The position numbers and the translations under genes were made by a program. A stretch of DNA of 27,691 nucleotides, taken from positions 1 through 27,691 of the IMG/VR virus record IMGVR_UViG_3300010379_001097, one strand, 5' to 3'. This DNA is from a virus. The first letter of the stretch is position 1, and each line of letters begins with the position of its first letter. Positions 2,696 to 27,501 of the stretch are shown piece by piece. The notes beneath the pieces are model-generated. The model did not search any database, was not told the DNA's origin, and saw nothing but the letters and a program-made list of their open reading frames with translations.

Positions 2696-2998
2696 TTAGA
2701 AGTATTTCGCGCCGTCGGGTTCCGTCTTGGATCGTCGCCGATACCGGGGCCGCGGTGTTGACGGTTGAACCGTGCGGCGCTCCTCAAAGATGGCAACGTC
2801 CGCTAGGTCAATCAGGAAGCGGGGCCGGCCGCGGCTTACCGCTACGTCGATTGCGCGGAGTTCTCCCAGCCGGATAAGAGCAATGATGCTTTCCGGGTCT
2901 TTGCCCCATTGTGCCGCTAGTTCAGTCGGGGAAAGTTTCCTCCGGGCAGTCTTGGCGCTACGGGGTTCCTGCGGTGGGGTCTTGAACGACGTTTGCAT
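2696..2998 (-). CDS. Excisionase-like helix-turn-helix DNA-binding protein
   Basis: A 100-residue basic protein. Residues about 21-73 (LSPTELAAQWGKDPESIIAL...GRPRFLIDLADVAIFEERR) form a winged helix-turn-helix of the excisionase/MerR type. The basic tail (PRPRYRRRSK) fits DNA binding. Its ATG overlaps the integrase stop as TAATG, so translation of the two is coupled. That arrangement suggests a recombination directionality factor for the adjacent integrase, though a general repressor is possible. Confidence 0.7.
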   Translation of the reverse strand: MQTSFKTPPQEPRSAKTARRKLSPTELAAQWGKDPESIIALIRLGELRAIDVAVSRGRPRFLIDLADVAIFEERRTVQPSTPRPRYRRRSKTEPDGAKYF

Positions 2999-4233
2999 TA
3001 TGCGGTTTCCTTCTCATTCGCTAGGGCGCTGAAAATCTGCAAATAGTCGTCAGGGAAAAGCCAGCCGTGTACATAATCGGTGACGGCTCGCAAGCGGCCA
3101 TCGTCCACCGAATCGCGGTAGTTCGTTCCCATTCCTGGTGTGACATGGCCCATGATCGCATCAACGGCAATTTGGTCTTTGGCTGCGCCGCCGATCGTCT
3201 CAAACGTGTGGCGTAAGCTGTAGAACGAAAGTCCCTTGCGCTTCATGCCAAGGCGGGTAAGGAGCGTGTGGATTCTCGCGTTGATGCTGTCCTGCCAATT
3301 CAGGTGGTCAAGTCGGCCGGTGTCAAAGCTTCGCGCCGACGGTGCGCTAAATCGTACATACGGTAGCCCATTCTTCGTGAGAAACACCAGGTCCGAATTC
3401 AAGGGGTCTTTTGGTTTTCGCCGGGCCTTGAGCCACTCCCGGATAGCCGCGGTGGTCTCAGTCCAGAGTGAACATCGGCGCGGGACGCCGGTTTTCGGGC
3501 GCGGATGGGAATGCCAGCCGCCTTCCAAATCGAGGTTGGCAAAAGTGAGCGTTGCACAGTCGTTGTTACCGAATCCGCAATTGATTCCAAGAAGGACCAT
3601 CGCCGGCATCGCCCCATCGGTAGATGAAATAATCTTGCGAATTTGCTCTGCCGTGAATACTCGCCCTTCCCCTGCCTCTCGCTTGTGCCAGCGCGTCAGT
3701 TTTTGCTTGCGAAAGGCTGCCCCGAAAAGAACCGGTGCGGGAATCAAGCGTTGCTCGTCGTTGTGCGCGAATGAAAAAAAAGCGCGAATGTACTGCACCA
3801 AATCGCGGCGGGTGTTTGGGGCTTTGTCGATCAAACAGGTTTCCATCAAGCGTTGAAAATCATCGGGGCCGACATCCTCGACTGCCTGCTTTGCTCCAAA
3901 CTGCTCGACTAGCAGCGCGCAGACTCGATACCATGTGCGAAGTGAGCAAAGCTTGATTTCTCCCGTTCGCTGTTGGGTCATCTTCTGCGCAAGAATCCTG
4001 TTGGCAAGGTCGGCAACGGTCAGCGCACCGGTGTTAATAGCCCGTCGCTGGCGTCCGGCAAGAAGCAAATCCTTTTGGTCGATCCACTCATTCAGGGCGC
4101 GCTCGCCTTTGGGGTCGTCTTGGATTTTTCCAAAGTATTCCAATTTCCCTCGAACCTTCTTTGCCCACCGTCCGGTGGAATGAGGAAAGAGCGGAAAATC
4201 TGTGTATGGTTTGCGGTATTTTTGGGTTATCAC
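2998..4233 (-). CDS. Tyrosine-recombinase-family phage integrase with altered active site
   Basis: This 411-residue protein has the layout of a tyrosine integrase: N-terminal and SAM-like core-binding region (about 1-185) and a C-terminal catalytic domain. Visible catalytic elements are the beta-hairpin Lys (PRPKTG, about K247), YSLRH (338-342, second Arg with Tyr in place of the usual His), MGH (361-363) and the nucleophile candidate Y372 in NYRD. At the position of the canonical TGxRxxE box it reads CGFGNND (219-225), so the first catalytic Arg is absent. I recall similar sequences in planctomycete integrases. The start is GTG at 4233 with AAAGG upstream. It is followed by the excisionase-like gene. 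Confidence 0.85.
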   Translation of the reverse strand: MITQKYRKPYTDFPLFPHSTGRWAKKVRGKLEYFGKIQDDPKGERALNEWIDQKDLLLAGRQRRAINTGALTVADLANRILAQKMTQQRTGEIKLCSLRTWYRVCALLVEQFGAKQAVEDVGPDDFQRLMETCLIDKAPNTRRDLVQYIRAFFSFAHNDEQRLIPAPVLFGAAFRKQKLTRWHKREAGEGRVFTAEQIRKIISSTDGAMPAMVLLGINCGFGNNDCATLTFANLDLEGGWHSHPRPKTGVPRRCSLWTETTAAIREWLKARRKPKDPLNSDLVFLTKNGLPYVRFSAPSARSFDTGRLDHLNWQDSINARIHTLLTRLGMKRKGLSFYSLRHTFETIGGAAKDQIAVDAIMGHVTPGMGTNYRDSVDDGRLRAVTDYVHGWLFPDDYLQIFSALANEKETA

Positions 4234-4330
4234 GTTTGGCCTTTGGGTCTTAAATGGTTTCTAAGCGGGTGTCTAACTTTCTATCGCATCGCTGAAAAAG
4301 TGCTGAAAAAACGGCCAATTTATCGCCCCT

Positions 4331-11766: not shown

Positions 11767-11800
11767 GCGGTCAGAGATCAGCGGTCAGCGATCAGAGATC
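11767..11800. repeat. Short tandem repeat of GCGGTCAG(A/C)GATCA
   Basis: GCGGTCAGAGATCA is followed by GCGGTCAGCGATCAGAGATC, a run of near-identical 7-mers (GGTCAG/GATCAG). It fills the gap between the GroES-like gene and the small membrane protein; a third low-complexity repeat type in this window. Confidence 0.6.
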
Positions 11801-12197
11801 AGGCGTTGGGCATGATCGCCATAAGTTGGCTTTCAGGGAGGATGATCACTTCGCTCTGCTCATCGTCCATATCCAATTGCACGCGGTCCATCGTCTGCGG
11901 GATGATCACGCGGTCGCCCACCTTGCACTGCATCGGAATCAAGTCGCTGTATTTGCCTTGGCCCGTGGCGTCGACTTCCCAGAGCGGGGTGATGCGGCGC
12001 GAACCTGGCCCCACGGCGACGACCGTCCCCATGCGGCCGGCCCGCTTGCCGACGACCGAGTTGGGCAGCGCGATGCCGCCTTTGGTCAGCTCCGGCAGCA
12101 CGTCCGCCTGGATGGCGACGCGGTCGCCGATCGGAATGAGTGCCGGCGGGACGTAGGGTGTTTTGGGTTTGTCTTCGCTGCCGATGATGCGGGCCAT
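11799..12197 (-). CDS. GroES-like co-chaperonin (phage Cpn10)
   Basis: A 132-residue protein, start MARIIGSEDKPK at 12197 with AAGGA upstream. PIGDRVAIQADVLPELTKGG then IALPNSVVGKRAGRMGTVVA and VGPG is the Cpn10 core with its mobile loop; KVGDRVIIP and VIILPESQLMAIM close the barrel. GroES caps GroEL in the cytoplasm; phage versions such as T4 gp31 help fold the capsid protein, so a capsid dependence is a fair inference. Between the two halves is a segment (RRITPLWEVDATGQGKYSDL) longer than in typical GroES. Confidence 0.85.
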   Translation of the reverse strand: MARIIGSEDKPKTPYVPPALIPIGDRVAIQADVLPELTKGGIALPNSVVGKRAGRMGTVVAVGPGSRRITPLWEVDATGQGKYSDLIPMQCKVGDRVIIPQTMDRVQLDMDDEQSEVIILPESQLMAIMPNA

Positions 12198-12198
12198 T

Positions 12199-12537
12199 TC
12201 AGGGTCCTTGGGGTTGCAGGGTTGGTTCGGTTGGTGGTTGAATCGCGTGGGGATCAAGCATAGCTCGTTTCACGCTCAGGTCCCTGTATCGCTCGACGGA
12301 ATCGGAAAGCAGAAGGATGGCCTGGCTGAGCGCCTCCTCCCAGCTCATCTCCCCGCGTCGCCACGCCGATAGACAGGCACTTACCATCGGGCAGCGCATA
12401 CCAATTTCGATGACTCGCTCGCGTGACGGTGCCGCGCGGCGGGCCAGATCGCGAAACTCCCGCTCAAGATTAGAGCGCCAATCGCTCCAGGCGCTGGCGT
12501 CCATTCGGGCTGTGGCGTAGTTGTAGTCGCTGCTCAT
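12199..12537 (-). CDS. Hypothetical protein beginning with a portal-like motif
   Basis: 112 residues, helical with a Pro/Gln tail, directly upstream of the GroES-like gene (stop and next ATG almost touching). Its first residues SSDYNYATARMD resemble SSGYNYASGRLD of the portal at 4975-6657, with a shared 13-base run (12514-12526 and 5434-5446). After about residue 15 no similarity is visible. Either a recombined portal fragment reused as a gene start or chance. Function unknown. Confidence 0.55.
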   Translation of the reverse strand: MSSDYNYATARMDASAWSDWRSNLEREFRDLARRAAPSRERVIEIGMRCPMVSACLSAWRRGEMSWEEALSQAILLLSDSVERYRDLSVKRAMLDPHAIQPPTEPTLQPQGP

Positions 12538-13566: not shown

Positions 13567-14547
13567 TTACTGTCGCCGGCGCCCACGGCCCGTCTGCTCA
13601 GCTTGCGGTACCGGGCAGTGGCCGTTGGCGCACGGCGACGAAGAGACTTGGGCCTTGGGAGCTTTACTCCCTGCTCCCTGCTCCTTGCTCCCTGCTCCTT
13701 GCTCCCTGCTCTTCACTCCCTGCTCCTTGCTCCCTGCTCCCTGCTTCACCGCCGCCGCGATGGCGTGATAGGTTCGCGCATAGCGCTCCATGTGATCGGG
13801 ACTCAGCCGGCCCGTGCATTGCTGCGCATCGAGCCATCCGCTCACCGTGCCGATGAAGCCCTTGCAGGCGCCGAGCTGATCCGACGATAGCGCTAGGAGC
13901 TGCGCGCTGGTGGCCAGGTTCAATTGCAATGGGCTGACGATTGTGCCGGCGTCCAAGGCCTGGGCCATGCTTTCGTAGGCATTGGCGACGGCCGCAGCGG
14001 TGGCCGGGTCGACGCCGTTCAGCGAGGCCGAGACGGCCGTGCTCAGCGCGGCCAAGGGCAGGTCGTCGGCCGGTGGTGTCGGCGGTACCGGTCCAGGCGC
14101 CGAGGGCGAAAACGGCATGGCGGCGGAAACCGTAACGGTGGCGGTATAGATGCCACCGGCGGTGCCGTTCGATTCGGCCCACACGACCTGATACGTTCCT
14201 GCCGCGGATCCACTAGTGATGGCGTACTGTTTCCACGTCGCCGGCGAGTTGCTGGCCGCGGTGATTCCGGCCGGCCCGGCGGTGAAGGCCAGGGCTGGCG
14301 TTTGGGCCGAGAGCGGGGAGCAGGGAGCAAGGAGCAGGGAGCAAAGCAGGAGCAGTGCCACGCCGGCCTTCAATAGGACCGCCGTGTTGATCGAGCTGAA
14401 ATGCTCTTTCTTGTTGTCCGGCCGGCGGCCGAGCGTACTTTCCAGAGAGACGTTGCAGAAATCGTCGTTTGGATACAAATCCGTGATGACGGCCGGGATC
14501 AGGACCTTGTCGCCCTTGGCCAGCGGCGTGCCGTTACAATCATGCAT
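13567..14547 (-). CDS. Chimeric secreted protein built partly from genomic repeat
   Basis: A 326-residue frame with three parts. Residues 1-60 (CNGTPLAKGDKVLIPAVITD, NVSLESTLGRRPDNKKEHFS) look like a cytoplasmic phage protein family that normally stands alone. Residues about 60-83 (KAGVALLLLCSLLLAPCSPL then SAQ) form a signal-peptide-like hydrophobic stretch encoded by the CTCCCTGCTCC repeat. A Ser/Thr/Gly-rich Ig-like region follows (TYQVVWAESNGTAGGIYTAT), then a helical region, and a C-terminus KQGAGSKEQGVKSREQGAG encoded by the same repeat in the other orientation. It could be two genes, the second from a TTG at the KAGVALLLL boundary. Confidence 0.5.
   Translation of the reverse strand: MHDCNGTPLAKGDKVLIPAVITDLYPNDDFCNVSLESTLGRRPDNKKEHFSSINTAVLLKAGVALLLLCSLLLAPCSPLSAQTPALAFTAGPAGITAASNSPATWKQYAITSGSAAGTYQVVWAESNGTAGGIYTATVTVSAAMPFSPSAPGPVPPTPPADDLPLAALSTAVSASLNGVDPATAAAVANAYESMAQALDAGTIVSPLQLNLATSAQLLALSSDQLGACKGFIGTVSGWLDAQQCTGRLSPDHMERYARTYHAIAAAVKQGAGSKEQGVKSREQGAGSKEQGAGSKAPKAQVSSSPCANGHCPVPQAEQTGRGRRRQ
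13671..13746. repeat. GGAGCAGGGAGC-family repeat array (3' part of chimeric gene)
   Basis: About eleven runs of CTCCCTGCTCC/CTCCTTGCTCC units, seven bases each with small variations. They lie in frame in the gene at 13567-14547, where the minus strand reads EQGAGSKEQGVKSREQGAG. Confidence 0.85.
14311..14350. repeat. GGAGCAGGGAGC-family repeat (signal-peptide coding)
   Basis: AGCGGGGAGCAGGGAGCAAG followed by GAGCAGGGAGCAAAGCAGGA, opposite in orientation to the array at 13671. On the minus strand it encodes CSLLLAPCSPLSA, the hydrophobic core of the chimeric protein. Confidence 0.8.
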
Positions 14548-15687: not shown

Positions 15688-16551
15688 GTGGGCAGTTTCG
15701 TTTCGGACTCGATTTCCGGCCTGAACAGCCTTCTCCGTGGGGCGTCTCAGGCGACCGCGGCCGCAGTTGATTCCCAGCCACAAGCAAAGCCTCCTCCAAC
15801 TGTCTCCGCGGCGCCTCAGACGCCCCAAGTTCATAAGTCAGAGTTCGGCGACGCTCCTCCTGAAGGCGTGCCGTACCTCAAAGGCGCGGGCAAGTGGGTT
15901 CCACCTGGCACCGCCAACGGGCCGATCGTGGCGGAAAGCTGCGAGCAGGGAGCAGCGAGCAGGGAGCAAATAAAGGCGCTCGCCAAGAAGCCCGCCGATA
16001 TCGCCGCGGTGATCGGCGAGTACCGCAAGGCGGATCTGCGCCCGTTGTGGCTTGGCCAGGTGACCTATCGCTGGATCGCCGAGCAGCCCGATCGAGCGAA
16101 GGCCCTGCGCGAGGTGAAGTCTGCGCTAGTGCGTGAGGACCTGGCGACGGCCGCCGGCCGCGTCGATCGCTATGTGGCGATCTACTGGGTCGCGCGGCTC
16201 TTCGGCCTCGACGAGGCCCAGTCCCTTCGCGTGGCGGCCATCCGGGAGTTGGTGCGGCTGGTGGCCCGCAACCAGGCCGAAGAGACGTACTCGATCCGCA
16301 AAGGCTGTGAAGCGCCCGCCCGCGCGCTCTGGCGGCGCATGGTCCGGGAACGGCTGACCGCGGCCATTGTCCGCAACGAAGTGTTCAAGATTCGGCCGCG
16401 GCGATCGCTGAAGATGAAAGCCGGCGGCGTGAAGTTCGGTCAATGGCTGCGGGCCGTGCCTCAGCTCTCGGCCGAGCAGGCGCGAACCTTGATGGCGCGG
16501 CTGGCCGATCATTGCGAACGGCTCTCACGAGAACGAAAGCCGGCGGCGTAA
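15688..16551 (+). CDS. Hypothetical helical protein, only plus-strand gene of the element core
   Basis: 287 residues, GTG start with GGGGAGG upstream. Residues 1-75 are Ala/Pro/Ser-rich and probably disordered; VPYLKGAGKWVPPG (61-74) is a conserved-looking stretch. A copy of the GGAGC repeat encodes CEQGAASREQ (84-93). From about 95 the protein is helical and basic (YRWIAEQPDRAKALREVKSA, RVAAIRELVRLVARNQAEE, RRMVRERLTAAIVRNEVFK), which may bind nucleic acid. It is transcribed against all neighbours and has a terminator in its leader, suggesting separate regulation. No family recognised. Confidence 0.65.
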   Translation: MGSFVSDSISGLNSLLRGASQATAAAVDSQPQAKPPPTVSAAPQTPQVHKSEFGDAPPEGVPYLKGAGKWVPPGTANGPIVAESCEQGAASREQIKALAKKPADIAAVIGEYRKADLRPLWLGQVTYRWIAEQPDRAKALREVKSALVREDLATAAGRVDRYVAIYWVARLFGLDEAQSLRVAAIRELVRLVARNQAEETYSIRKGCEAPARALWRRMVRERLTAAIVRNEVFKIRPRRSLKMKAGGVKFGQWLRAVPQLSAEQARTLMARLADHCERLSRERKPAA

Positions 16552-17978: not shown

Positions 17979-18166
17979 CTTCCTGTCTCCGATTTTTCTG
18001 TCTCTTTGGCCTCTCGGGCTAGCAGGGCCTCTTCGGCCAATTCGAGGATTTTCAACATCCGGTCACGTCCAAGGCTCACCGTCTCATGTGGGACGCCGGC
18101 CACCGCGCGGTGCAGGCACCGCACGCCCTGCACGTCGATCTCGGTGTTTCGCGCGCGTCTGGTCAT
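17975..18166 (-). CDS. Small hypothetical protein
   Basis: 63 residues (MTRRARNTEIDVQGVRCLHR...). ATG at 18166 overlaps the upstream stop (ATGA) and its own stop overlaps the next ATG. N-terminal half basic, C-terminal half a charged helix (RMLKILELAEEALLAREAKE). Possible small DNA-binding or partner protein of the replication genes; not recognised. Confidence 0.6.
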   Translation of the reverse strand: MTRRARNTEIDVQGVRCLHRAVAGVPHETVSLGRDRMLKILELAEEALLAREAKETEKSETGR

Positions 18167-19257
18167 TTCGCCCTCCGCTTCGGTTGCTCGCGCTGAAGTA
18201 CTTCCCACTGCGCGAAGAGTTCCTTGCGCAGCTCCTCGTGGGCCGCGGGGAACTGCCGCAGGATCGCGCCCACCCAGGACCGCAGGTAACAGCACGCCTG
18301 GCCGACGGTCTCGACGTGCGGAAAGAACGGCGACGGCTCATCGGGCACAACCTCCGCATATTCCCCGCTGATCGTCTCAGGCGCCAGCCGCGGGGCGTTG
18401 GCCTCGAAGCTCCGGCCGCTATCGAGCAGCTCAGCCGGCGGACTGGGCGACGGCTTGGCCTTTGGCTGACGGGCTTGCGGGCAGACCGCGGCAACTGCCG
18501 CAGCGACCTGCTTCGCGGTCGGATGCCGGACGCCCTCGCCATCGGGCTCGACCAGCGAGATCATCTCCAACACGATCGCCTTCGCCTGCTTCGCCGTCGC
18601 ATCGGCCGGGAACTGGCGGAAGTGGCTCTCGCGGTCCAGGGCGATCTTCCGCGGCTCGGCAACCGGCGCCGTCAGCCGGTAGAACTTCGCCGCCTTCATG
18701 CTGTCGTAGACCACACTGCGCGAATAGCGTTCCGAGCGGATCCAGTCGTCGAAGCTCGCGCAGCCTTCGCCATAGGCTTCCTGGTCGTGAATCGCGATCG
18801 CCTTCTCGCCCAGGTCGAGAAAACTATTTTGGAAGCAGTCGTACGAGCGGCGGAAATCTTCCAACAGCGCGCGGCACTCCTTCGCATTGAGGATTTTGGC
18901 GGACTTGGCGACAACCATCGCGGTGGACTCCTTTTGGGCTTGCTTCTGGAACGAATCGATCCAGGCGGTCAAAATGCTGATGACCTGGCGGAGCCAGCGT
19001 CGATCCGGGCAATGCGGCCGATCGGCGGCGTCGACCGCGCGGTTGACCAGGCCATCGACCGCGTCGCACACGCTGCGGCAGCGGTCTTGACGGGTCAAGC
19101 TCTGCGCGTGGGCCACGTGGTTGCCGCGGTGGATCGCGGCCGTGGTCCGCCAACCCGGAAGCCTCTCACGGGTGCGGGCGAAGCGGTCGACGCGAACGAT
19201 CGCCTTTGCGTCCGGCAGCGGGATCTCGATTATCTCGGAATCTGGCGTTGAGGTCAC
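18163..19257 (-). CDS. ParB/KorB-like DNA-binding protein downstream of the replication initiator
   Basis: 364 residues from a GTG overlapping the initiator stop as GTGA. The central part (EAYGEGCASFDDWIRSERYS, RSVVYDSMKAAKFYRLTAP, later HPTAKQVAAAVAAV) matches the helix-turn-helix pattern of plasmid/phage ParB- or KorB-like proteins. The C-terminal half is Pro-rich then helical. A strong AAGGAG lies before an internal ATG at 18918 (MVVAKSAKIL), so a shorter 250-residue product may be the main one and the first 113 residues could be a separate module. Location suggests a role in replication or copy control, comparable in place to lambda P but without sequence evidence for helicase loading. 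Confidence 0.65.
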   Translation of the reverse strand: MTSTPDSEIIEIPLPDAKAIVRVDRFARTRERLPGWRTTAAIHRGNHVAHAQSLTRQDRCRSVCDAVDGLVNRAVDAADRPHCPDRRWLRQVISILTAWIDSFQKQAQKESTAMVVAKSAKILNAKECRALLEDFRRSYDCFQNSFLDLGEKAIAIHDQEAYGEGCASFDDWIRSERYSRSVVYDSMKAAKFYRLTAPVAEPRKIALDRESHFRQFPADATAKQAKAIVLEMISLVEPDGEGVRHPTAKQVAAAVAAVCPQARQPKAKPSPSPPAELLDSGRSFEANAPRLAPETISGEYAEVVPDEPSPFFPHVETVGQACCYLRSWVGAILRQFPAAHEELRKELFAQWEVLQREQPKRRAK

Positions 19258-20576
19258 GGCACTCCGGCAAGCTGCCGCCTCCGTGCTTCGCGCTCCTGTT
19301 TCAGTTCGTGCGGAAGCTTGATATGAAACTGCTTGGCGATCTCGGTCACTCGCCGGTTAAACCACGCGCCGCGCGGGCTCCAAACCTGGCCATATTGGGT
19401 CTGCGCGTCGCGGATCTGTTTGAGCTCGCCGATCAGCCCCTGCATGCGGCCGAAGATGTCATGCGCGTCTTCGCGCGTCGTGTCCTGACCATGCACGACC
19501 ATCAGGTCCGCGGCGTAGCCGAACAGCCAATCGGCCGTGCCCGGATCGTTCACCAGCCCGCGCAGCCGAGTCACCAGCCGATCCTTCTGGGCGTCGGGCA
19601 GGAAGGCCGTTGCCGCGCCCTCGAACACGTCGCCGAAGGTGGGAGGCGGCGGCGGTTCGCGCCGTTGGGCCGCGGCCCGCCGCTGGTCGATCGCACGCTG
19701 CGCCGCCGCCAGCACGGCCGCATCGTCGCCCTCGCGTGCGTCTTTAAAGTCTTTAAGGATCATTGAATCATTAAGAACTTTTAATAGAGATTCTTCTTTA
19801 GAAGAATCTTTAAAGACGGGCGCGTGCGCGGGTATATTGCGCGATGGGGCGTTTTCGACCGTGGGGTTTTCCCCACGTGGGGTTTTCCCCACGCTTTCCG
19901 GCCGAGGCGTGGGGTTTTCCCCACGGTGCCGTGGGGAATTCCCCACGGCCTGTTTTCCCGCAGAATTCGGGGGTTTTTGGGGCGTGGGGTTTTCCCCACG
20001 GTCCGTTTCGCCGGGGCGTGGGGAATTCCCCACGGTCGAAACGGCAAGGGCGTGGGGTTTTCCCCACGGGTCGGCTGTCCCCGTGGGGTTTTCCCCACGC
20101 CCTTCATAGAGCGCGGCTTTCACCGTCGCCAGGCGTTGAGGTTCTCCGGCTATACCGGAGCGTTGAGGTTCCTGGCTGGCGGCCGGGCCGCTTCCTTGCA
20201 CTGCGGTGGGCTTTGCTAGCACTTCCGCAGCCGGCTCAAGTGTATCTTCGTCTGTGATCGCCGGCAAGCGGCGTTGCTTGTCCGGTTTTGCCGTGGCGTG
20301 AGAGGGGCACGGCCGGAAAACCCGCAAATCCATGCAGCCATCGGGGTAGCGGTGTTTGACGTCGAAAAGGTCGTAAAACTGGTTCAGCTTCTTGACGTGC
20401 CCCAGAACCGTCGCCCGATCTCGATTCAGCCGGCGGGCAAGTTCCTTGGTGGTGATGCCGCTGATTTCCCCCGGCGCGCCGCCGGCCATTTCCCAGACCT
20501 CGGCGAAGACGATCGCCGGCCCGAAGCCGATGCGCTTGTTTTTGATCAACGGTCGCAAGTCTGTCCAGATGTCCAA
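19254..20576 (-). CDS. Replication initiator with intragenic origin (lambda O-like layout)
   Basis: 440 residues from a TTG at 20576 preceded by AAGGA; the frame is open further upstream but overlaps the preceding gene. Residues about 15-85 form a winged helix (GITTKELARRLNRDRATVLG then HVKKLNQF), a typical initiator DNA-binding domain. Residues about 160-239 are low-complexity repeats of RGENPT, WGKPH and VGNSPR, encoded by eight palindromic iterons. Residues about 253-279 are encoded by an AT-rich block. The C-terminal domain (FGDVFEGAATAFLPDAQKDR onward, about 310-440) is helical and may contact replication partners. The order binding domain, iterons, AT block, C-terminal domain is that of lambda O. 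Confidence 0.7.
   Translation of the reverse strand: MDIWTDLRPLIKNKRIGFGPAIVFAEVWEMAGGAPGEISGITTKELARRLNRDRATVLGHVKKLNQFYDLFDVKHRYPDGCMDLRVFRPCPSHATAKPDKQRRLPAITDEDTLEPAAEVLAKPTAVQGSGPAASQEPQRSGIAGEPQRLATVKAALYEGRGENPTGTADPWGKPHALAVSTVGNSPRPGETDRGENPTPQKPPNSAGKQAVGNSPRHRGENPTPRPESVGKTPRGENPTVENAPSRNIPAHAPVFKDSSKEESLLKVLNDSMILKDFKDAREGDDAAVLAAAQRAIDQRRAAAQRREPPPPPTFGDVFEGAATAFLPDAQKDRLVTRLRGLVNDPGTADWLFGYAADLMVVHGQDTTREDAHDIFGRMQGLIGELKQIRDAQTQYGQVWSPRGAWFNRRVTEIAKQFHIKLPHELKQEREARRRQLAGVP
19739..19817. other. AT-rich block beside the iterons, candidate DNA-unwinding element
   Basis: About 79 bases, mostly A/T with runs such as TCTTTAAAGTC, ATTGAATCATTAAGAAC and TTTTAATAGAG, in a strongly GC-rich surrounding. 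It sits 44 bases from the first iteron. In lambda ori an AT-rich stretch beside the O-binding iterons is where strands open. Confidence 0.6.
19861..20098. repeat. Eight palindromic iterons, candidate replication origin
   Basis: Eight copies of a 16-base palindrome lie at 19861, 19877, 19909, 19931, 19984, 20018, 20052 and 20083 (start positions). Six read GTGGGGTTTTCCCCAC, all in the same orientation; two (19931, 20018) are the perfect palindrome GTGGGGAATTCCCCAC. Several spacings are 31-34 bases, about three helical turns. They lie inside the initiator gene. Confidence 0.8.
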
Positions 20577-20593: not shown

Positions 20594-20845
20594 CTATGTG
20601 TCCGGCGTACCGGGCCAGGTGGCGGCTATGCGTTCCACACAGCCAGGCCGCGGGCGCACGCCGCGCCGCAGGCCATCGTTCAACAACTGCCGGCAGCGAT
20701 CGAGGTTGATCTCCGGTCCGCCGGTGACCAGGCCATATTGCCGCGCCGATTCGAGGTGCGTGAAAAACTCGGCCAGGTCGACCGCGTCCTGCCATTCGCC
20801 CGGCGTCGACGGGCATGCCGGCTTCCGCTTTTTAATGGTGCTCAT
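20594..20845 (-). CDS. Small hypothetical protein
   Basis: 83 residues (MSTIKKRKPACPSTPGEWQD then AVDLAEFFTHLESARQYGLV). ATG at 20845 overlaps the stop of the small membrane protein upstream. It ends 17 bases before the initiator's TTG, so its translation may feed the initiator. Helical middle, basic N-terminus; three Cys. Not recognised; early accessory gene. Confidence 0.6.
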   Translation of the reverse strand: MSTIKKRKPACPSTPGEWQDAVDLAEFFTHLESARQYGLVTGGPEINLDRCRQLLNDGLRRGVRPRPGCVERIAATWPGTPDT

Positions 20846-21831: not shown

Positions 21832-22181
21832 CAGACCATCCTCTCGGTTTCCGGGTCCCACTTGAGCCAACCGTTATCGGGCAACCAGGTCTTTTCCCCG
21901 CCCTCGCCGTCGGCATGCCGGCGGGGAAACAACGTCCCGCCCTCCTTGTGTACGCCCATTTGCAAGACCGCGCGGCAGTGCGGGCAAACGAGCTCGAAGA
22001 ACTCGTGGTCCTGCGCATTCTTCCGCACGCGGAAAACGATGTCCAGCGCGCGGCACTTGCCGCAACGCGACTCGCCGAAAACCTCCTGCGCGCTGGCCAA
22101 GAGTCGGAAGAGGTCCTTCTGTTGGGACGCCTCCAGTTCGAGCATCAGGTTCGGGCGCACGCGAAGCTGAACTTTCATCAT
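21831..22181 (-). CDS. Zinc-ribbon phage protein, possible ssDNA-binding accessory
   Basis: 116 residues. CGKC (about 40-43) and CPHC (about 66-69) make a four-Cys zinc ribbon around FRVRKNAQDHEFFELV. LQMGVHKEGGTLFPRR follows, a combination I associate with small phage proteins near recombination and replication genes. GGAGG precedes the double ATG (22181 and 22178); the first overlaps the recombinase stop as ATGA. Likely a nucleic-acid-binding helper. Confidence 0.65.
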   Translation of the reverse strand: MMKVQLRVRPNLMLELEASQQKDLFRLLASAQEVFGESRCGKCRALDIVFRVRKNAQDHEFFELVCPHCRAVLQMGVHKEGGTLFPRRHADGEGGEKTWLPDNGWLKWDPETERMV

Positions 22182-23338
22182 CCCGCCTCCTTCTGAAACA
22201 GCGATAGTTGGGGCCCCTGTGGCGCTGCCGGTGGCTGATCTTCCGGGATCAAGAGCGCCTCGCGGGTGATTGGCGTCGACTGCCGCGGGTCGAGATAATG
22301 CTTCTTTGTCACCGCCCGGCCGCTGTGCCCGCAGAGCTTCGTTCCGCTTCCGCCCAGGCTCTCCACGACCGTGGCCGCCGTCTGCCGAAAGACTTTCGTG
22401 ACCACGCCCTTGCGAAGCTCGATCCCCGCCGGCTTGAGGATCTTCTTCTTGAAATGGCGTAGCAACGTCTGCCAGCCCGGTTCCTGGCCCGGCTTCACCG
22501 CGTCGTAGGGCCAGGCGAACAACCGCGGCTCGTCATGCGCGGCCAACAGCTCTTCCACGGCCGCGGCGACGTAGTCCGGCAACTGGATCCGCTGCTCTTC
22601 GTGCTGCTTCTGATTTTCGGCCCGCAGCCTGAGCACGCCGTGCTCATAGTCGCCGCGCGGCGCGAGCATCAAGGCCGTCAGGCGATTGCCCGCGCGGCTC
22701 ATCACCTGGTACCAGGCGAACCACCAGATGCAGCCGGGCACCGTGCCGACGAATCCGCTCACTGCTTGGGCCGCCTGCCCGATCCGCCAGTATTCGGTCC
22801 GGTCCAGCGCCTTGGGCTCGGGCGTTTCTTCCGGAAGCCAGGCGTTGAACTCGGTCCGCCGCCGCAACAAACCTTCCTCGGCCGCCCGGTTGACGATCGC
22901 CTTTAACTGCCGCAGATTTTTATTGGCGTTCGCGGTGCCACACTCCTTGTCGGCGATCAGGCCCAAGAAGTAATCCCGCAACTCGCGAAGCAGCTCGTCC
23001 CCAAGATCGCGGACGAACGTCTGGCCACGGCAGCGGGCCAGATGCCCCAGCAAGGCGTTCACCAGCTTCACCGTCCGCGGCTTGAGGCGCTTGACCGCCA
23101 GGTAGTGGTTCCTCACGAACTCGCGTACCTGAAGCGATCTGAGGGCCTTTTGGCGATCCGTGTAGCGTGACTTCTTGTGCCGCGTTCTGGGGGTCCGGAC
23201 TTCCGCCGCGGACGGTCCGGACCTGTCGGCGGATTCATAATCCGCCGACAACCCCCCGCTTTCGCTTGGCGCTGGGTAAGGCTGGAAGAGTACGAAATCT
23301 TCCACGCCCGCCGCGCTGATCGTATAGCTTTCCGCCAT
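22178..23338 (-). CDS. Second tyrosine recombinase
   Basis: 386 residues from the ATG at 23338 (GAGG upstream). N-terminal 60 residues are linker-like; a SAM-like core-binding domain spans about 65-165; the catalytic domain has Arg I in AGNRLTAL (about R219), Lys in ENQKQ (about K244), FRQTAAT (Arg II, about R318), GHSGRAVTKKHYLDP (His about 338, Tyr about 348). The set is more complete than in the integrase at 2998-4233. A large inverted repeat lies 164 bases upstream. It may drive element integration or a different reaction such as dimer resolution or inversion. Confidence 0.8.
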   Translation of the reverse strand: MAESYTISAAGVEDFVLFQPYPAPSESGGLSADYESADRSGPSAAEVRTPRTRHKKSRYTDRQKALRSLQVREFVRNHYLAVKRLKPRTVKLVNALLGHLARCRGQTFVRDLGDELLRELRDYFLGLIADKECGTANANKNLRQLKAIVNRAAEEGLLRRRTEFNAWLPEETPEPKALDRTEYWRIGQAAQAVSGFVGTVPGCIWWFAWYQVMSRAGNRLTALMLAPRGDYEHGVLRLRAENQKQHEEQRIQLPDYVAAAVEELLAAHDEPRLFAWPYDAVKPGQEPGWQTLLRHFKKKILKPAGIELRKGVVTKVFRQTAATVVESLGGSGTKLCGHSGRAVTKKHYLDPRQSTPITREALLIPEDQPPAAPQGPQLSLFQKEAG

Positions 23339-23645
23339 CCTAGCCTCATTCCTCACGTACACTCGAACACGGATATCCACGGCTGCAACTCCCAGGTGTG
23401 TGTCTTGGGGCGTCGATTGCCCTCCACCCTGGCCAACTTGCAAGCGTGAATCCGTGCCTATCTTCGCGCCCCAGGGAAGCCTACCATTTCGGCCTCAATT
23501 TCAACGGTGCGCTCTGCCGCGCCGACGGATCTCGCACCGACGGCTACAAGCCGGCGGGAATGGGATGCGAGGGTCAACAATGCACTGCCGTTCGGCGCGG
23601 CAGAGCTAACCGTTGCAAAAGGTCTTAGGACTTAGGTCTTAGTAT
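23339..23645. other. Gene-free leader region of the recombinase
   Basis: No credible gene; the plus-strand frames here have no supporting start sites or family look. It contains the inverted-repeat structure at 23502-23615 and a CTTAGGACTTAGG repeat at 23624-23648. Confidence 0.55.
23502..23615. repeat. Large nested inverted repeat upstream of the recombinase
   Basis: The 24-base arms at 23502-23525 and 23592-23615 match in 22 positions, with 15 contiguous (GCTCTGCCGCGCCGA). Inside them are CTCGCA/TGCGAG (23531-23536, 23566-23571) and CGGCT-ACA-AGCCG (23541-23553). The whole 114 bases can fold as one arm. Confidence 0.75.
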
Positions 23646-24064: not shown

Positions 24065-24313
24065 GGCAGGGAGCGGGGAGCATGGAGCCCAAGCAGATTC
24101 TCCCTGCTCCCCGCTCCATGCTCCCTGCCTTTTCGCCGCGCGACGGACGGCCCTGGCGCGAAAACAACAGACTCTCGATTCGCTGGCGTGAAAGGAAGCA
24201 AGCGCCAGAGAACCAGATCCAGGGCCGCCCGTGGCGGGGCGAAGAAAAGCATGGAGCAGGGAGCAAGGAGCCCAAGCAGTTTGCTCCCTGCTCCCTGCTC
24301 CTCGCTCCCTGCC
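24065..24313. repeat. 249-base near-palindromic element made of GGAGC repeats
   Basis: The left arm begins GGCAGGGAGCGGGGAGCA and ends CGGACGGCCCTGG; the complement of the right arm begins GGCAGGGAGCGAGGAGCA and ends CGGGCGGCCCTGG. Each arm contains its own small hairpin around GGAGCCCAAGCAG(A/T)TT. The centre (about 24160-24210) is unique, with CTGGCG/CGCCAG pairs. Confidence 0.65.
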
Positions 24314-24510
24314 TTTGCTCCCTGCCCTTCCCCCCTGCCCTACAGCTTGCCCATATTACCCTGTCTGCGCAAGAAATAGGCGGCATAGTTGGTATAATCC
24401 ACACTAGCCGCCAGAGGGGTATTATCGGCCCAAGCCGGGATGAGAGATGAGGGCTGAGGGATGAAAGACCAAATAGCGAAGCGTGGTAAGATAGGTAAAG
24501 GGCAGGGGGC

Positions 24511-27367: not shown

Positions 27368-27429
27368 GCCGTCGTTTAGCTCCGTTCCTGTTCACATAAG
27401 TGTCCGCTCCATCTGTTTTTCAGTTTCAG

Positions 27430-27501
27430 AGGCCCCGATCAGAGTCGAACTGATGATGGCGGATTTGCAATCCGCTGCCTTAGCCACTTGGCTACGGGGC
27501 C
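27430..27501 (-). tRNA. tRNA-Cys(GCA)
   Basis: Complete cloverleaf on the minus strand: acceptor GGCCCCG/CGGGGCC, D-arm GCC...GGC, anticodon stem GCGGA/TCCGC with loop TTGCAAA (anticodon GCA), T-arm ATCAG-TTCGACT-CTGAT, and U73 as expected for tRNA-Cys. CCA is not encoded. tRNA genes are common integration sites, but no copy of its 3' end was found elsewhere in the window. Confidence 0.95.

Follow-up and report, generated by a model that had tools for sequence, protein, structure and literature searches.

The results described here point to an array of eight perfect palindromes in a viral contig as the site where a tailed phage or prophage would start its replication, a candidate origin located inside the gene of its own initiator, with a probability of roughly 85%. 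The window (the whole stretch of DNA analysed) comprises positions 1 to 27,691 of the viral record IMGVR_UViG_3300010379_001097, that is, 27,691 bases with about 62% GC. The origin reading is based on the eight-site array, its confinement to the initiator gene, a symmetric change of the sites in a homolog, a constraint exerted at the DNA level, an adjacent AT extreme and a predicted winged helix. An earlier inspection of the letters alone (hereafter, the sequence-only reading) had proposed an intragenic iteron origin, and our analyses support that this interpretation was right in substance. Such origins are already known, as in lambda ori and pSK41 Rep, and they constitute a functional class rather than a homology family; the initiator family reported here is one without a name.

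The array was built from the 16-base palindrome GTGGGGNNNNCCCCAC, which occurred in eight exact copies at 19861-20098 and in none elsewhere in the 27.7-kb contig. In gene order, the copies and their encoded peptides were as follows:

20083..20098, iteron 1, GTGGGGTTTTCCCCAC on the plus strand, read as RGENPT
20052..20067, iteron 2, read as PWGKPH
20018..20033, iteron 3, GTGGGGAATTCCCCAC, read as VGNSPR
19984..19999, iteron 4, read as RGENPT
19931..19946, iteron 5, GTGGGGAATTCCCCAC, read as VGNSPR
19909..19924, iteron 6, read as RGENPT
19877..19892, iteron 7, read as VGKTPR
19861..19876, iteron 8, abutting iteron 7, read as RGENPT

Six copies had a TTTT centre (GTGGGGTTTTCCCCAC) and two an AATT centre (GTGGGGAATTCCCCAC), which agrees with the eight palindromes that the sequence-only reading had counted inside the gene. 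From 19861 upwards, consecutive starts were separated by 16, 32, 22, 53, 34, 34 and 31 bp, and the spacing of 31-34 bases previously pointed out for several sites was thus confirmed. None of 200 first-order Markov simulations produced a single exact site. When up to two mismatches were allowed, the window contained 11 matches, compared to a shuffle mean of 1.97, and none of 100 shuffles reached 11. The linkers between the iterons were diverged and irregularly spaced, and a test at 10.5 bp detected no helical phase shared by the eight sites (R=0.13, P=0.88).

The palindromes were embedded in a gene for which two features were delimited:

19254..20576, minus strand, putative replication initiator gene of 440 aa, with a TTG start and the ribosome-binding site AAGGA, defined from the open reading frame and the start context of the homologs
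20277..20576, minus strand, predicted N-terminal winged-helix DNA-binding domain (aa 1-100), defined from AlphaFold2 and fold matches

The mechanical open reading frame extends to a far-upstream ATG at 20816; the TTG at 20576 is the likely start, since its ribosome-binding context, GAAGGANTGCATCTTGGAC, was identical in both homologs. The encoded protein comprised a predicted winged helix (aa 1-90), a linker encoded by the putative origin (around aa 160-280) and a helical C-terminal region (around aa 285-436), the iterons being placed some 480-700 nt into the coding sequence, between the winged helix and the helical C terminus. AlphaFold2 modelled aa 1-100 as a canonical winged helix (pLDDT 79.9) with the predicted elements H3-12, H18-30, E36-42, H43-50, H54-67, E71-76 and E81-86, in line with the previous proposal that the protein begins with this fold. 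The full-length model was too uncertain to be used beyond this N-terminal domain, and the C-terminal fold is left unclaimed. The N-terminal model aligned with the plasmid initiator Rep structures 4pql, 4pt7 and 5kbj with Z scores of 8.1-8.8 over 86-88 residues, values tied with those of many unrelated winged helices. Replication families in Pfam, PHROGs and NCBIfam gave no match for the window protein, which returned weak generic HTH matches only, and neither Pfam nor NCBIfam showed a RepA_N sequence match. Similarly, Phage_rep_O (PF04492) did not match P0003, P0002 or L027 at E<=0.1, while the lambda O control scored 123 bits. Searches with P0001 or L027 against annotated phage proteins, and with P0001 against plasmids, also yielded no match. 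Since no replication family matched, the term initiator rests on architecture and context.

Directly downstream of the iterons in the gene direction, we found the following features:

19737..19816, AT-rich block and candidate DNA unwinding element, with the top AT content of any 80 bp in the contig
19789..19808, 20-bp palindrome GATTCTTC-TAAA-GAAGAATC (minus-strand reading) within the AT-rich block, identical in the homolog G003

The block reached 73.8% AT and the interval 19741-19800 was also the highest-AT 60 bp of the contig, confirming the 79-base AT-rich stretch (19740-19818) that had been noticed beside the sites. At the equivalent place of G003, positions 4225-4284 constituted the highest-AT 60 bp in 44 kb. 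The AT-rich blocks of the window and G003 shared the 20-bp palindrome GATTCTTCTAAAGAAGAATC, and its flanks may form a further inverted repeat with matching changes (GTCTTTAAAG/CTTTAAAGAC versus GTCTTTGG/CCAAAGAC), a suggestive pattern from two records (n=2). GC skew was also considered. The cumulative skew of the window peaked at 17.7-20.5 kb, near the initiator gene, with a sign opposite to that of an origin with a G-rich leading strand, while G001 presented a minimum near its gene and G003 neither peak nor minimum there. Because of the opposite sign and the disagreement between records, skew was dropped as origin evidence.

Two homologs of the window protein were identified in other phage contigs (42-46% identity), the palindrome having been searched first and the protein second, and both presented the array at the same place; no homologous initiator lacking iterons was found between them. 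Specifically, L005 (IMGVR_UViG_3300035696_001570) encodes P0002, with 46% identity, and contains two GTGGGGAATTCCCCAC before the contig ends within the array. L027 (IMGVR_UViG_3300031241_000009) encodes a full-length homolog, with 42% identity, and contains six CGGGGAATTCCCCG sites distributed over three frames. All the L027 sites carry C/G where the window has T/A, in both arms, which constitutes a coherent and symmetric T-to-C/A-to-G change; the homolog palindrome GCGGGGAATTCCCCGC is the counterpart of the window GTGGGGTTTTCCCCAC. The window and its coherently changed homolog offer a natural pair for mapping the winged-helix residues that read the outer base pair of the iteron. As to confinement, GTGGGGNNNNCCCCAC was restricted to the initiator gene in G001, and GGGGWWWWCCCC in G003 (44 kb), G004, G005 and G008; in these phage records, the core was found in the initiator gene only, which answers the main check proposed by the sequence-only reading. 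The gene neighbourhood was partly shared, including a methyltransferase (84%) and the downstream gene (47%) in G003, while G001 shared an integrase (57%) and, upstream, four small genes (33-74%). The downstream gene was annotated as follows:

18163..19257, minus strand, possible partner of the initiator, overlapping the initiator stop by 4 nt (GTGA), with 47% identity in G003

This gene matched no family, recognised helicase loaders included. No DnaB_C helicase was encoded on the three records, where no loader was recognised either; together with the lack of a replication-family match, the sign of the skew and the absent helical phase, this weighs against the origin reading.

Two known systems provide precedents for an origin of this kind. 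In lambda, the iterons and an AT-rich tract occupy the central part of O, and the iterons number four in lambda and six in some lambdoid phages (PMC7466680). In the annotated lambda O gene, the iterons occupied nt 349-434 and the AT-rich tract started at nt 438. Like lambda O, the window gene contained, all within the initiator gene, a predicted winged-helix N terminus followed by palindromic iterons, an AT-rich stretch and a C-terminal domain; the iterons also had an A/T centre with G/C arms, and the downstream gene overlapped by 4 nt. Unlike lambda, with its four imperfect iterons spread over about 85 bp, the window presented eight perfect palindromes of 16 bp in an array of about 240 bp, a protein with no detectable sequence relation to O and a downstream gene with no recognised helicase-loader match. 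The label of lambda-O-like origin given by the sequence-only reading holds for the layout and the way of working, but not for membership, as lambda O matches Phage_rep_O and the window protein does not. Its count of eight sites versus the four of lambda was correct, although not remarkable, given that some lambdoid phages have six. The second system, pSK41 Rep, has four boxes in the centre of rep, a winged-helix N terminus that binds them, a dispensable linker encoded by them and a C-terminal domain of five helices (PMC5703833). The predicted N-terminal domain of the window protein aligned with plasmid Rep structures at the scores given above, tied with those of other winged helices; the window protein had no RepA_N sequence match, and pSK41 is a plasmid and not a phage. 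The window displayed two features of intragenic iteron origins, namely repeats confined to the initiator gene and an adjacent AT extreme. By analogy, a dimer of the N-terminal winged helix, which on the predicted structure is the likely iteron-binding domain, would bind each 16-bp palindrome, and several bound dimers would assemble a nucleoprotein complex over about 240 bp. This complex would destabilise the AT-rich block at 19740-19818, and the C-terminal helical domain would recruit the helicase or primase machinery of the host, either directly or via a loader. The iteron-encoded stretch, around aa 160-280, would act as a passive linker with residues dictated by the DNA sites.

In order to describe the core on a larger scale, viral contigs were scanned for three GGGGWWWWCCCC in a row, which returned ten contigs. 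L013 and L025 carried phrog_11233 initiators, the near-identical L022 and L026 a phrog_270 initiator, L027 the homolog described above, and the near-identical L029 and L030 an AAA+ ATPase with an HTH, while L023, L024 and L028 had no assignment to a known gene. Pair scans further returned L010 (phrog_11233) together with two ParB-like genes, L012 (202-798) and L018 (989-1609), with internal TGGGGATTTCCCCA palindromes read as GEIPT. Recognised PHROG initiators from unrelated phages (replication initiation, O-like or DnaD-like) had repeats of TGGGGAAAACCCCA or TGGGGATATCCCC in the corresponding position. Like the window, the phrog_11233, phrog_270 and phrog_391 initiators (e.g. L010, L013, L025 and L026), which are of the winged-helix type, carried GGGG-W4-CCCC arrays between their N- and C-terminal parts, with about three sites each versus the eight of the window; hhalign detected no homology between the window initiator and the phrog_11233 group (probability 4%). 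Because the core itself was the query and the scan included no scrambled-palindrome comparison (e.g. CCCCWWWWGGGG), we treat this wider recurrence as a lead. It is conceivable, though we lean against it, that GGGG-(A/T)4-CCCC is a recurrent iteron design of initiators with no detectable homology, which would have arisen convergently or through the exchange of a winged-helix specificity that they have in common. Its users would be the window family, the phrog_11233 group and the phrog_270 group, and possibly the AAA+ ATPase and ParB-like genes. The window also shows that palindrome arrays inside genes can serve to recognise unannotated initiators.

The presence of the same core at the same place in known initiators of other phages argues against the palindromes being operators, through which the winged-helix protein or a phage repressor would regulate the early operon while replication starts elsewhere. 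Winged-helix proteins commonly regulate transcription, the fold matches included many regulators and autoregulation is common among initiators. However, the sites lay about 480-700 nt within the coding region and not at a promoter, and they numbered eight and adjoined the AT extreme of the contig, so that we regard an operator function as improbable.

The ParB-like genes with internal TGGGGATTTCCCCA sites (L012 and L018) bear on another explanation, in which the array would be a centromere-like parS bound by a protein of the ParB type, its location within a winged-helix gene being incidental. The size of the 16-bp palindromes is parS-like, and the G001 contig opens within a truncated ParB-like frame (L008:2-1243), 413 aa or longer and recognised from its translation, the other end of this contig stopping within the iterons of the initiator. 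Nevertheless, ParB_N was missing from G000, G001 and G003, with a control that detected it in 11 of 14 genomes, an absence that is not decisive, since the window is a fragment and the G001 frame is cut at its N terminus. The adjacent AT extreme and the conserved place between two protein parts fit an origin better, and the chance that the array is a partition site appears very small.

We also considered whether the array could be without function, as a minisatellite or as an artefact of assembly or of a mobile repeat. Some Planctomycetaceae and Bacteroidota MAGs did carry tandem minisatellites of 21 bp, palindromic and with similar GGGG-N4-CCCC-type cores, outside initiator genes (L014:2602-2804, L017:16-155, L020:5206-5387 and L021:6766-6926). 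The window array, in contrast, combined irregular spacing and diverged linkers with perfect 16-mers, and its homologs, which came from other metagenomes, carried the array in the corresponding position, its sequence coherently changed. This explanation, to which we attach hardly any weight, was rejected on the basis of the homologs and of the frame usage described below.

The origin reading is further supported by the coding of the array, in which the constraint acts at the DNA rather than at the protein level. The eight iterons were read in all three frames, as RGENPT four times in frame 1, WGKPH once in frame 2 and VGNSPR or VGKTPR three times in frame 0, as the sequence-only reading had described (GENPT, GKPH and GNSPR) when it suggested selection on the DNA. 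Its suggestion gained support from 20,000 synonymous recodings of the gene with local codon usage, which never produced more than two sites, and, given the amino acids, the codons observed had a joint probability of about 1e-19. The 16-mer has no stop codon in any of the six frames, so it can sit in a gene at any phase, and this property could be one reason for the proposed recurrent palindrome design, which would fit anywhere in genes. That the repeats were selected as protein, as a GENPT-type peptide (e.g. a binding motif) palindromic by chance, has next to no probability: half of the eight copies encode RGENPT, and other initiators repeatedly contain GENP(K/N)/GDIPN peptides, but the window uses three frames with identical outer nucleotides, the recodings did not exceed two sites and L027 keeps the palindrome while encoding AGNSPR, RGEFPA and RGIPRA, so that frame usage and the different L027 peptides contradict it.

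Finally, we examined the possible host. Planctomycetota is the most plausible host phylum, a proposal which relatives of the other integrase of the window, detected in 4 of 294 Planctomycetota genomes at 34-49% identity, would fit without proving it. Two copies of GTGGGGWWWWCCCCAC within 40 bases were absent from 392 genomes of this candidate phylum, an outcome in favour of the sequence-only reading. The initiator protein was not found in the same 392 genomes either, an absence that means little because the search had no positive control. Altogether, these results provide a concrete origin candidate for a phage group, possibly infecting Planctomycetota, with an initiator that matches nothing in the current libraries of protein families.

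Other elements were observed along the window. A 7-bp unit (CTCCCTG/GAGCAGG) formed dispersed short arrays at 13667-13745, 14311-14343, 15937-15968 and 24282-24341; the exact probe GGGAGCAGGGAGC was absent on either strand from G001 and G003. Two different tyrosine integrase-type genes (2998-4233 and 22178-23443) coexisted in the contig, and a GroES-like co-chaperonin gene (11799-12257) was located amid phage genes. Near the contig end, a tRNA-Cys (gca) at 27429-27501 could represent an attachment site or host flank.
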